Shown one piece after another: positions 27,108 to 44,503 of a stretch of DNA of 44,503 nt; position 1 is the first letter of the stretch; every line of letters starts with the position of its first letter. Origin of the DNA: Fusobacterium sp. IOR10 (GTDB lineage Bacteria > Fusobacteriota > Fusobacteriia > Fusobacteriales > Fusobacteriaceae); the NCBI RefSeq assembly GCF_010367435.1, contig NZ_WJWY01000016.1:1-44503 (forward strand). The letters are read 5' to 3'. The translations under genes were made by a program, and so were the position numbers. The notes under the pieces were generated by a model. It saw only the letters and a list, made by a program, of their open reading frames with translations, did not search any database and was not told the DNA's origin.

Positions 27108-28822
27108 AAGTAAAAAAATTAATTTTAAAATACTATAAAAAAGAAAAGAAATTATTGGTTATATTTATAATATTTAATTTACTTGTAACATTCCTAGACT
27201 TAACTGCACCTTTGGTAGTTAAAAAAATTATAGATACAGCTATTCCAAATAAAAATTTAAATATGATTTCTTATTTATCTCTTATGGTTTTGGCCATGTA
27301 TGGGATTAGAACTGCCTTTGCAATTGTTTCATTTAGTAGAGGTCAGCTTATGGGAAATAGAATTAAATTTCACATGAGAAATGATTTGTTTTCCCATATG
27401 CTTAAACAATCCACTGAATTTTTCAATAAAAAAGAAAAAGGTGAATTAATAGCTAGAATAACAAGTGACTTGGAAAATTCATCATCTTTACTTTATAGAG
27501 GACTTCAAGATTCTATTTCTGCAGGGGGAGCTCTAATAGGTAGTTTTTTCCTTATGCTCTTCTTTAGTCCAATATTAACTTTAATTATTTTTGCACCTTT
27601 TCCATTTGGATTTTTATTTGTATATTCTAAAAATAGAAAATTAAAATCAGGTTATAGAGAAATAAGAAAAAATAATAGTAATTTCACTAGCACTACCTAT
27701 GAATTACTTAGAGTTATATTTTTCTTAAAGGATAACGTTCTTGAAAACTATGCTGAAAACAAATTTCGAGAAAGTAATAACAACCTTTTAATGGCAGAAA
27801 AAAGAAATTATTTAAATGTTGGGATTTTTATGTCTGGAGTAACATTTTATGTTCATTTAACTCAAATAATTTTAATAGGTTTTGGAGGATATTTATATAC
27901 ACAAAACAAAATCACAATTGGTATTATTATTTCTTTTTTACTTTTAGTTGATAGATTCAAAATTTCTCTAATTAAACTTGCAGGTCTTACAGATAATTAT
28001 CAAAAGGGAATGTCTGGTATAAATAGGCTGAACAGTATGTTAGATACAGATTATACCATTCTTAATGGTACTAAAAAAATTACTTCTCCCTTTGAAGTTC
28101 TTACTTTTAAAAATGTTTCCTTCTCATATGGAAATGAAAACATTTTAAACAATCTTTCCTTTAGTATTAGAGCCAAGGAAAAGATAGCTATTGTTGGGAA
28201 AAGTGGAATTGGGAAATCAACTATTTTAAATTTGATTAAAAAAAATTACTTACCTGATTCAGGAGATATTTTTATTAACAACATTAATTACAAGGATATG
28301 AGCAAAAAAAATCTTTTAAATATAATGGGAATATTAAATAATTCAGAAAATATACTCTATGAAACAGTTGAAAAAAATATTTCCATTGTAAAAAATAAAA
28401 GTACCTATGAAAATATAGTTGAAGCTTGTAAACAAGCATACATTGATGAAACAATTGAAAAATTACCTAAAAAATATAAAAGTATCATGGGAAATAAGGG
28501 AACTATAATGAGTACTGGTCAAAATCAAAGAATTTCCTTTGCTAGACTATTCTTAAAAAAACCAGAAATTATACTACTAGATGAAGCAACCTCTGGATTA
28601 GATAGAATTTCTGAGAAAATAATTATAAATAATATTTTAAATTTTTTAAAGGAAAAAACAGTTATCTTTGTTACACATAGACTAGATATTATTAAGAATT
28701 TTGACAGAATCTTAGTTTTTAATGAAAATGGAATTGTTGAAGATGATAATTTTGAAAAATTAATTGAAAAACATGGGGAATTCTACACTTTATATAAAAA
28801 GAATAATATTAAGGAAAATTAA
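27104..28822 (+). CDS. Exporter-fold ABC transporter (fused membrane and ATPase domains)
   Basis: A 572-residue half transporter. Six membrane helices lie in residues 1-310, then a nucleotide-binding domain with Walker A GKSGIGKST, a signature reading STGQNQR instead of LSGGQxQR, Walker B IILLDEATSGLD and the H-loop in VTHR. It should homodimerise. Coupling by ATGA to a binding protein suggests it could be an importer with exporter fold, as known for YbtPQ-type siderophore systems; otherwise it is a lipid or drug exporter. The altered signature motif deserves note. Confidence 0.85.
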   Translation: MKVKKLILKYYKKEKKLLVIFIIFNLLVTFLDLTAPLVVKKIIDTAIPNKNLNMISYLSLMVLAMYGIRTAFAIVSFSRGQLMGNRIKFHMRNDLFSHMLKQSTEFFNKKEKGELIARITSDLENSSSLLYRGLQDSISAGGALIGSFFLMLFFSPILTLIIFAPFPFGFLFVYSKNRKLKSGYREIRKNNSNFTSTTYELLRVIFFLKDNVLENYAENKFRESNNNLLMAEKRNYLNVGIFMSGVTFYVHLTQIILIGFGGYLYTQNKITIGIIISFLLLVDRFKISLIKLAGLTDNYQKGMSGINRLNSMLDTDYTILNGTKKITSPFEVLTFKNVSFSYGNENILNNLSFSIRAKEKIAIVGKSGIGKSTILNLIKKNYLPDSGDIFINNINYKDMSKKNLLNIMGILNNSENILYETVEKNISIVKNKSTYENIVEACKQAYIDETIEKLPKKYKSIMGNKGTIMSTGQNQRISFARLFLKKPEIILLDEATSGLDRISEKIIINNILNFLKEKTVIFVTHRLDIIKNFDRILVFNENGIVEDDNFEKLIEKHGEFYTLYKKNNIKEN

Positions 28823-41923: not shown

Positions 41924-42805
41924 ATGAAAGTAAAAAATATAAGCTATCGAAATCCAAAAAACAAGAATAATTCTGATTTGGAAATATTAAGAATTAGACA
42001 TTTTTTTGAAACACGACCTCAAAAAATGTTAGAAACTGATGTTCGTCTTAATTTTTGGATTTTACTATATATTACTAAAGGAAATGGAGTACATTATATT
42101 GATTTTAAAAAATATCCTTATAAAGCAGGAGACTTAATAATTATTGAACGTCATCGTGTTCATTCCTTTAAAGTGAATAATAATGTGGAAGGTTATGTTA
42201 TTAATTTAAATGAACCTTTCTTTTTTGAAGATGGTGAAAATAATAATATGGATTTACTTGCATTTTTTGAAACTCCCTATGAAAAACCTATTTTATCCAT
42301 AGATATGTCAAAAATTTCAACTAACAAAATTCTTATAGATTTAGTTTACAAAGAGTATTGTAAAAATCATGATTATTCTTCAAAAAATCTTATTCGTTCA
42401 CTGTTTAAAAGTTTTATTTTTTCATTATATTTAGAAAAAAAAGATAAAATTATTAATTCTTCCACTATAGAATATAAATATTACAATAAATACCGTGAAC
42501 TTATCGAGCTAAATTTTAGAAATTTAAAAACAGTTAACAACTATTCTAAACTTATAGGAGTTAGTGTTAAAACAATAAATATGGCATGTAAAAAATGTGC
42601 TGATATAAGTGCTAAACAACTTTTAATAAATAGGGTTATACTTGAAGCTAAACGTCTTCTTGTTAAAGGTGATATGAAAATATATGAAATTTCATATTAT
42701 TTAGGTTTTAATGAACCTGCTAACTTTTCAGCATTTTTTAAAAAACATACAGGTATGAGTACCAATGATTTTAAAGAAGTCATTAAATTAAAAAAATATA
42801 AATAA
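41924..42805 (+). CDS. AraC-family transcriptional regulator
   Basis: A 293-residue regulator with an N-terminal cupin sensor (NFWILLYITKGNGVHYIDF, YPYKAGDLIIIERHRVHSF) and two C-terminal helix-turn-helix motifs (near LKTVNNYSKLIGVSVKTI and YEISYYLGFNEPANFSAFF). The family's K.HTGMSTNDFK ending follows. The start at 41924 is supported by GGAGGGTGAG. A frame open from 41867 would begin upstream of the promoter. It is divergent from the amino acid ABC operon and may regulate it; the ligand is unknown. Confidence 0.9.
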   Translation: MKVKNISYRNPKNKNNSDLEILRIRHFFETRPQKMLETDVRLNFWILLYITKGNGVHYIDFKKYPYKAGDLIIIERHRVHSFKVNNNVEGYVINLNEPFFFEDGENNNMDLLAFFETPYEKPILSIDMSKISTNKILIDLVYKEYCKNHDYSSKNLIRSLFKSFIFSLYLEKKDKIINSSTIEYKYYNKYRELIELNFRNLKTVNNYSKLIGVSVKTINMACKKCADISAKQLLINRVILEAKRLLVKGDMKIYEISYYLGFNEPANFSAFFKKHTGMSTNDFKEVIKLKKYK

Positions 42806-42819
42806 TTTTACTGTTAAAT

Positions 42820-42848
42820 ACGCCCTAAGCTATTATAGCTAAGGGCGT
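42820..42848 (+). terminator. Terminator of the AraC-type gene
   Basis: ACGCCCT pairs with AGGGCGT, and inside them AGCTA with TAGCT, with one A-A mismatch and a TTA loop; TTCTTTTT follows. Confidence 0.85.
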
Positions 42849-43046
42849 TCTTTTTATATTAAAAAGATAGTTTATCCCATGCTCTCAATTAAAAATCTCA
42901 AAATTTATAAAAATTAATGTCCTAATTTTATATAGAAAAATAAAGCAATATAATCTAAAATAACCCAATATATTTAAAAATTAAATATAAAAATTATAGA
43001 AAAACACTGTAATCTTATCCCGATGTATAAATATTTTAAATTCTAT
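42849..43046. other. AT-rich non-coding stretch upstream of the asnA promoter
   Basis: No reading frame, tRNA or strong hairpin is seen. A/T tracts just before the -35 could act as an UP element. Confidence 0.4.
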
Positions 43047-43075
43047 TTGACAATTGCATCAAAATAATATATAAT
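43047..43075 (+). promoter_or_regulatory. Consensus promoter of the asnA attenuator transcript
   Basis: TTGACA (43047-43052), exactly 17 nt, TATAAT (43070-43075): a 12/12 consensus match. Transcription should start near 43082, 26 nt before the leader peptide. Confidence 0.85.
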
Positions 43076-43107
43076 CTTATGCATATTAAGAAAGACGGAG
43101 GTGGCAT

Positions 43108-43185
43108 ATGAAAAGATATATTATTTTAGCAATTATAAACAACAATAATAATAATGGCAATATGTCGGGATTTGAACTTACTTAA
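43108..43185 (+). CDS. Asparagine-rich leader peptide of the asnA attenuator
   Basis: A 25-residue open reading frame behind a strong GGAGGTGG site. Codons 11-16 are six consecutive Asn codons (two AAC, four AAT), with another Asn at codon 18, and it ends in ...MSGFELT. Asn codons are what asparaginyl-tRNA limitation would stall on, and the gene downstream makes asparagine, so ribosome-mediated attenuation is strongly implied. The peptide itself probably has no other function. Confidence 0.88.
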   Translation: MKRYIILAIINNNNNNGNMSGFELT

Positions 43186-43298
43186 TGTTTTATAACATTT
43201 TGAGGGCAAATCCATTTTATCTTGTTTAATTAAAGATTAAAATTTATGCCCTAATTAACTTGTTAATTCGAATCATTTGGGGTAGTACTCAAATGATT
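43168..43298 (+). promoter_or_regulatory. Attenuator region: competing pairings before asnA
   Basis: Segments seen: GGATTTG (43168-43174, inside the leader) complements CAAATCC (43207-43213). AGGGCA (43203-43208) complements TGCCCT (43247-43252). AATTAA/TTAATT flank a CTTG loop (43253-43268). The first two pairings share bases 43207-43208 and compete. A ribosome stalled in the Asn run would leave 43168-43174 free, changing which downstream structure forms. The exact antiterminator is inferred, not calculated. Confidence 0.65.
43271..43298 (+). terminator. Attenuator terminator between leader and asnA
   Basis: AATCATTTG (43271-43279) pairs perfectly with CAAATGATT (43290-43298), with a 10-nt loop and a T run directly after. 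It lies upstream of the asnA ribosome site, so its formation would block asnA transcription. Confidence 0.85.
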
Positions 43299-43330
43299 TT
43301 TTTTATTTAAATTTTAAAGGAGTGACTATT

Positions 43331-44290
43331 ATGAAAAAATGTATTATACCAAGTGGATATGAAAACAAACTAAGCTTATTTGAAACTGAAGTAAGTATTA
43401 AAAAAGTTAAAGATTTCTTTCAGCACGCTCTAGCTTATGAATTAAACTTAACTAGAATTTCTGCACCTCTTTTCCTTAGTGATACTTCTGGACTTAACGA
43501 CAACTTAAATGGATATGAAAGACCTGTAGGTTTTGATATTAAAACTATTCCTGGAGAATTCTCTGTTGTTCATTCCCTTGCAAAATGGAAAAGGATGGCA
43601 TTGAAAAAATATGAATTCCCTATGCACGCTGGACTTTACGCTGATATGAATGCTATTAGAAGAGATGAAGATGAATTAGATCCTTTACATTCTATTTATG
43701 TTGACCAATGGGATTGGGAACTTATAATAAAAAAAGAAGAAAGAAACTTAGAGTTTTTGAAAAAAATAGTTAAACGTATTTTTAGATCACTTCAAAAAAC
43801 TGAAAAATATATTAACAGAGAATATCCTCTTCTTAGTGAAAAATTACCTGAAGACATATTTTTTATCACTTCTCAAGAGTTAGAAGATGCTTATCCTGAT
43901 TTAACACCTAAAGAAAGAGAAAATGTTATTGCTAAAGAACATAAAGCTGTTTTCATTTCTCAAATTGGTAAAATTTTAAAATCTGGAATAAAACATGACG
44001 GTAGAGCACCTGACTATGATGATTGGGATTTAAATGGAGATTTAATTGTATGGTATGAACCATTACAATGTGCTTTAGAATTAACTTCTATGGGAATTAG
44101 AGTTAGTGAAGAATCCCTTGCAAAACAACTTACTATAGCTGGAGCTGAAGATAGAAGAGAATTACCTTTCCATAAAGCTCTTCTTAACAAAGAATTACCT
44201 TATACAATAGGTGGAGGAATTGGACAATCTAGAATTTGTTTATTCTTCTTAGAAAAAATTCATATTGGAGAAGTTCAAGCGTCTGTTTGA
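43331..44290 (+). CDS. asnA: Aspartate-ammonia ligase (AsnA), ending at a TGA in place of a conserved Trp
   Basis: Makes asparagine from aspartate, ammonia and ATP; class II aminoacyl-tRNA synthetase fold. Recognisable segments: [77 protein letters not shown] and [15 protein letters not shown]. The ATG at 43331 has AAAGGAG upstream. The frame stops at TGA (44288-44290) after HIGEVQASV. In the family, VQAGVWP-type sequence follows with Trp at that codon. The frame continues PKEMIDHYKEHGIKFL to a TAA at 44339-44341, which fits a normal C-terminus. The product is therefore 319 residues if terminated and 336 if read through. Confidence 0.92.
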
Positions 44291-44341
44291 CCAAAAGAAA
44301 TGATTGACCATTATAAAGAACATGGAATTAAATTTTTATAA
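44288..44341 (+). other. In-frame TGA and intact 16-codon tail of asnA
   Basis: TGA followed by C (TGAC) is a leaky stop context. The 16 codons after it remain in frame and conserved-looking, ending with TAA. A single G-to-A change from TGG would explain it, as would a base-calling error or functional readthrough. Confidence 0.75.
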
Positions 44342-44400
44342 TTATATGTGTTAATACTTTAATTTTTTAACTTTAATTTTTGCTTTTAGGAGGTATTTTA

Positions 44401-44503
44401 ATGAATAACATGCTAGAAATTTTTGGAACAAATCACTTTTCTGAAATAGAATTGAAAAGTCGAATTCCTGCTTCTATTTTTAAGGAGTTTAAGGCTGTTC
44501 AAA
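44401..44503 (+). CDS. glnN: Type III glutamine synthetase, N-terminal fragment (cut by the window)
   Basis: The reading frame starts at an ATG with AGGAGG 8 nt upstream and runs off the right edge after 34 codons. It reads MNNMLEIFGTNHFSEIELK, then a segment like the IFG.N.F....M..RLP...Y start of type III glutamine synthetases (GlnN/GlnA3). It lies 60 bp after the asnA tail with no terminator between, so it is probably under the same attenuator. The fragment is short; confidence is moderate. Confidence 0.68.
   Translation, partial: MNNMLEIFGTNHFSEIELKSRIPASIFKEFKAVQ

Follow-up and report, generated by a model that had tools for sequence, protein, structure and literature searches.

A putative Asn-codon leader-peptide attenuator upstream of asnA in Fusobacterium sp. 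IOR10

Results

The asnA locus and its upstream region

The window (the whole 44,503-nucleotide stretch analyzed here, contig C16) belongs to a genome of 2.03 Mb (G000) that is 99.9% complete, and its GC content is 27%. The relatives of this genome share their order with a family in which a named Leptotrichiaceae bacterium has a near relation (AsnA identity of 80% between L062 and L028), as expected if the genome belongs to Fusobacteriaceae. All features of the window described below lie on the forward strand. Close to its end, we found asnA (43331-44290), which encodes an aspartate--ammonia ligase and was recognized by TIGR00669 (331.6 bits, cutoff 292.8) and PF03590. The gene ends at an in-frame TGA (44288-44290), 17 codons early in a frame that otherwise runs to 44341, and the last 17 residues are thereby lost, as expected of a decaying duplicate or an assembly error. 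The same codon is TGG (Trp) in all seven other copies compared, namely the second genomic copy and six from relatives, and an alternative genetic code is therefore not supported. Behind asnA, the start of a type III glutamine synthetase gene was found (44401-44503, cut by the window end); its N-terminus is the same as that of the gene behind asnA in the relative G006, which matches PF12437 (GSIII_N).

Upstream of asnA, a sigma-70-type promoter (TTGACA-17-TATAAT, 43047-43075) matches the consensus at 12 of 12 positions and lies where the preliminary description of this DNA had placed it. It is followed by a Shine-Dalgarno sequence (GGAGG, 43097-43101), which is also kept before the leaders of relatives, and, after a spacing of 6 nt, by the ATG of a leader peptide ORF of 25 codons, MKRYIILAIINNNNNNGNMSGFELT (43108-43185), with counterparts in 33 genomes. 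As had been claimed, the leader contains six consecutive Asn codons and a seventh: the putative regulatory codons are codons 11-16 and, after one Gly codon, codon 18 (43138-43161). In a shuffled window, five consecutive Asn codons would be expected 0.04 times, and runs of six occur three times in the 2.03 Mb on both strands; two of these are asnA leaders, and the third is out of the Asn frame within its gene. This rarity, the mixed AAC and AAT codons of the run and its conservation rule out a mere AAT repeat of an AT-rich genome.

An intrinsic terminator separates the leader from asnA (43270-43304). Its 9-bp perfect core (12 pairs counted) and eight T bear out the terminator of the preliminary description, and it is the sole terminator-like site in 42500-44503, where 0.3 would be expected. 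The locus thus combines a short ORF with a Shine-Dalgarno sequence and tandem cognate codons with a terminator ahead of the biosynthetic gene, as is characteristic of attenuators. No known Rfam leader family matched the locus at gathering score, and a T-box was ruled out, as the RF00230 covariance model had no match in the window.

Five RNA segments with alternative partners

Between the Asn run and asnA, we identified five segments, A to E. Segment A (GGATTTG, 43168-43174) lies within the leader ORF and is fully complementary to CAAATCC (43207-43213) in segment B. Segment B, GGGCAAATCC (43204-43213), can pair with A or C, as judged from complementarity, homologue helices and covariation. Segment C, ATTTATGCCCTAA (43242-43254), can pair with B or D; it was defined by homologue helices, constrained folding, duplex shuffles and covariation. 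Segment D (43270-43287) comprises the 5' arm and loop of the terminator and was found by terminator prediction, duplex shuffles and covariation, while segment E (43288-43304), the 3' arm and T run, came from terminator prediction and covariation. The candidate antiterminator is formed by D 43277-43284, which is pairable with C 43247-43254. Of the competing pairings claimed earlier, the A:B complement is exact, but B:C and C:D had been missed.

A second copy of asnA in the same genome is intact and likewise preceded by an Asn leader and a terminator (L003, contig C41, 7092-8316). The two leader-asnA copies share 94% DNA identity over 1283 bases, beginning within the promoter, and their terminator stems differ by a paired change from T-A to C-G. 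The relative G006 likewise has two asnA copies, which differ from each other.

Conservation of the leader before asnA

Relatives were searched for the Asn run and the terminator, a test set in advance by which the proposed attenuator stood or fell; both recurred before asnA, and the stems covaried. AsnA was present in 47 of the 61 genomes of the family, and 33 of these 47 had an Asn-rich leader preceded by a Shine-Dalgarno sequence before the gene. These 33 genomes represent seven genera: seven of seven in the genus of the window, 11 in g4 (one leader being cut by a contig end), six each in g12 and g13, and one each in g2, g5 and g10. The sequence examined showed no Asn leader in the remaining 14 asnA-bearing genomes of the family.

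Nearly every Asn leader of the family was followed by a terminator before asnA. The leader at L138 (G080) was not: it retains its Asn run, segments B to E and the terminator are gone, and only 36 nt remain to asnA, which reflects either a natural deletion or an assembly collapse. In G070 (L145 / L113), the Asn leader and terminator are intact, and asnA lies about 720 bp farther on. Longer Asn-rich leaders of 30-49 aa with up to 22 Asn were found before asnA in other genera (L017, L019, L027, L029, L116-L121, L123 and L140), where the downstream layout is another one. The downstream layout of the asnA leaders of g4, g10 and g2 differs from the five-segment one.

Outside the family, an Asn leader before asnA was not found in the second family of the order. 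Among 80 named asnA loci, mostly from Firmicutes, a scan by match position gave no convincing Asn leader, and T-boxes at gathering score preceded asnA at six of them.

Covariation and spacing of the segments

Fourteen asnA-leader homologues could be well aligned, and the alignment revealed four helices: A:B, B:C, C:D and D:E. As B is common to A and C, and D is common to C and E, the combination A:B with C:D excludes the combination B:C with D:E. For the former, which was counted jointly, standard pairs occupied 93.3% of the cells, falling to at most 50% when the strands were slid, and four pairs were changed on both sides; for the latter, the corresponding values were 93.9% and six pairs. C:D alone showed 92.7% standard pairs, with both-side changes in terminator-loop columns, including 162-164. 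Because these columns sit in the loop, the covariation of C:D is no by-product of the terminator stem.

The position of A relative to the coding sequence was also fixed. Measured from where the last Asn codon starts, the core of A (xTTTG) lay 11 nt away in 13 of the 14 homologues and 10 nt away in L024. The stop codon followed this core after 10-13 nt in every one of the 14, while the codons at the N-terminus of the peptide drifted. A ribosome usually covers about 15 nt ahead of its P site. With this footprint and the fixed spacing, A would therefore stay free when the ribosome stalls in the Asn run and would be covered once the ribosome reaches the stop codon.

This arrangement bears on how the attenuator would work. 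At first sight, the leader, codon run and terminator resemble a trp or his leader, and the same attenuator might follow the classical four-segment logic, in which the stalled ribosome masks segment 1 and segment 2 then pairs with segment 3, with termination predicted in the absence of leader translation. We consider this version improbable. The control codons do not lie in segment 1 as in the classical scheme; they lie upstream of A. A, the partner of B, follows the Asn run at a constant distance and is covered only when the ribosome has reached the stop codon, and the terminator is overlapped by C:D, not by B:C. The analogy with the his, trp and leu leaders drawn in the preliminary description is loose, because a stalled ribosome masks segment 1 in trp and his, whereas here a stall would expose A.

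Folding of the leader RNA

Constrained folding was performed on the RNA before E is made (pre-E) and on the full RNA, with A exposed or masked (the values for B exclude L012 and L024). With A exposed, the pre-E RNA of most homologues gave A:B at about 0.6-0.9 and C:D at about 0.3-0.8. With A masked by a ribosome at the stop codon, B:C rose and C:D was near zero in most homologues. The two copies of the present genome differed under masking: the C41 sister copy discriminated well (B:C 0.87, C:D 0.02), and the window copy discriminated weakly (B:C 0.53 in the full RNA, C:D still 0.57 in the pre-E RNA). At equilibrium, the terminator D:E was favored in every folded state (0.95-0.98), and antitermination would therefore have to be kinetic, decided during RNA synthesis. 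Folding with and without a ribosome footprint, which had been suggested as a check, thus gave the expected change in pairing in most homologues, but not clearly in the window copy, and the terminator won all equilibrium states.

In duplex tests, which treat related sequences as independent, the C:D duplex of the window copy was not stronger than its shuffles (p=0.21), and C:D was without support in genus g12. By computation, a mutually exclusive antiterminator is nevertheless found at a position where a ribosome could decide its formation, weakly so in the window copy.

Codon-swapped leaders before other genes

A covariance model built from the asnA leaders was used to search 98 genomes of the phylum. 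R1 matches lying antisense to asnA elements arose from the mirror image of the stems and were discounted. The weak non-asnA matches that were fetched proved to be leaders with other codon runs that fit their genes. In the genome of the window, these included a His-run leader, MKKSILKKLNLNINNLTLQFHIHHHHREKGLQ, with the same hairpin and terminator layout before hisZ (L172, contig C6, about 28240-28460, reverse strand), a His-codon leader before an amino-acid ABC transporter (L173, contig C4) and a Trp-Trp leader before trpS (L174, contig C14). In relatives, we found an Ile leader before ilvD and leaders with Met runs ahead of metN and O-acetylhomoserine sulfhydrylase (L161, L163-L165, L167, L168 and L170); the latter are apparent Met-codon attenuators. 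The His class and the other classes had not been used in defining the model. Compared with dinucleotide shuffles, A:B and C:D reached p<0.05 in 10 and 11 of 14 His leaders, respectively, and each in 14 of 18 leaders of the other classes; the sequences are kin, and the p-values are not independent.

Relationship to the trpB motif

Narunsky et al. 2024 (PMC11109978) proposed the trpB motif (RF04312) as an orphan riboswitch candidate and did not rule out attenuation. The motif occurs with amino-acid genes in Firmicutes and Fusobacteria, and its model contains no leader ORF; it consists of a P1 hairpin and a terminator, and the right shoulder of P1 holds an antiterminator sequence (PMC11109978). 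The layout of the asnA element is the same: B:C corresponds to P1, D:E to the terminator and C:D to the antiterminator of the right shoulder. In score, the asnA elements are unlike the members of the family, reaching at most 31.5 bits against a gathering score of 59. Other leaders of Fusobacteriaceae reached up to 52.4 bits, which is also below this cut-off, and the His leaders were matched below it by RF04312 across the B:C hairpin and terminator. As every match is below the cut-off, the link rests on layout and a weak score, not on formal membership.

Sub-threshold matches to RF04312 were found in 46 of the 98 genomes of the phylum. At all 30 RF04312-like family loci that were fetched, we found a leader with a codon cluster, which agrees with the function of every gene that could be named: His codons precede hisZ or an amino-acid ABC transporter, Trp codons precede trpX, and Trp, Tyr or Phe codons precede DAHP synthase. 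Pro-codon leaders were seen before the Na+/proline symporter gene putP at L190, L198 and L202, under sub-threshold matches. In Firmicutes, covered by 30 genomes taken from the named loci, about 14 of the 19 RF04312 matches, all sub-threshold, lay behind His, Trp, Tyr or Phe leaders. Five matches, L213, L219, L221 and L222 (all with E > 0.001) and L215, had no matching leader and are probably due to chance. Since leaders with such codons precede all of the fetched family matches and most of those in Firmicutes, the trpB motif is, as judged from these sequences, probably an attenuator too.

The published status of RF04312 as a strong riboswitch candidate (PMC11109978), together with the shared hairpin and terminator layout, could also suggest that the asnA element is a metabolite-binding riboswitch with an incidental leader ORF. 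We regard this as very unlikely. The codon run varies with the gene (Asn, His, Met, Trp, Pro or Ile) while the hairpin layout stays constant, such a leader accompanies each fetched RF04312-like locus of the family, and the homologue alignment (A1) has no conserved aptamer-like core besides the coding run and the pairing segments. A constitutive terminator next to a small ORF that is there by chance or serves a separate function would account for the terminator being the favored end state in all folds, but is barely credible given that the non-terminator pairings covary, the spacing from ORF to segments is fixed and the codons match the genes.

Discussion

We conclude, with a probability of roughly 0.87, that the region between the promoter and asnA acts as a ribosome-mediated transcription attenuator, sensing charged Asn-tRNA to control asnA and probably the downstream glutamine synthetase gene as well. 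From the parts, their spacing, conservation and covariation and the match of codon to gene, all read from the sequence, we infer stalling, its timing and the resulting switch as follows. RNA polymerase would transcribe the leader while a ribosome translates the leader ORF. When Asn-tRNA is ample, the ribosome would reach the stop codon and cover A, so that B:C and the D:E terminator form and transcription ends. When Asn-tRNA is scarce, the ribosome would halt in the Asn run with its front edge short of A, and A:B would form. C would thereby be released and would pair with D, the 5' arm and loop of the terminator, before E exists, leading to readthrough into asnA. The preliminary description had proposed that a stall frees 43168-43174 to pair with 43207-43213 and so ends termination. 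The direction of this proposal fits, but A:B itself never touches the terminator and would act through the freeing of C.

We also consider it likely that a single, codon-swappable class of attenuators exists in Fusobacteriaceae and Firmicutes, in which a stall exposes the first segment, complete translation masks it, and readthrough is the default without translation. The asnA switch would be the Asn version of this class, and RF04312 would be its downstream half, the leader ORF of which, carrying His, Trp, Tyr, Phe or Pro codons, would have been overlooked. For the orphan RF04312, with more than 900 members, this offers a testable answer: sensing of charged tRNA rather than of a small-molecule ligand.

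Ribosome-mediated attenuation is a known kind of regulation, which the asnA switch would extend to asparagine synthesis. In the open literature searched, which leaves most subscription journals outside and gives no proof of priority, no Asn-codon leader attenuator of asnA and no leader attenuator in Fusobacteria was reported. As far as this search goes, what is new is the specificity for Asn at asnA, the occurrence in this phylum, a layout that exposes A upon a stall, and the identity proposed here for the trpB motif. Attenuators were likewise recognized by comparative genomics in the hisS leader peptides of Bacilli (PMC2965389) and the cysS uORF of Rhodobacterales (PMC8632094); these concern other amino acids, and the two reports contain no Asn case and do not mention asnA.

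The T-box leaders (RF00230) before asnA of Firmicutes resemble the asnA switch in sensing tRNA charging and acting by antitermination, but they bind tRNA directly and involve no translation, unlike the asnA leader. The amino-acid operon leaders of Proteobacteria (trp, his, thr, leu and phe; RF00506, RF00512-RF00514 and others) share with it the Shine-Dalgarno sequence, the short ORF with tandem cognate codons, the competing RNA stems and the intrinsic terminator ahead of a biosynthetic gene. The asnA leader differs from these in its Asn codons and target gene, its phylum and its five segments. In particular, its control codons lie upstream of A, and a stall would expose A rather than mask segment 1 as in trp and his. 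With five segments, termination is therefore predicted to require translation of the leader, and the default would be opposite to that of trp: without translation, no termination.
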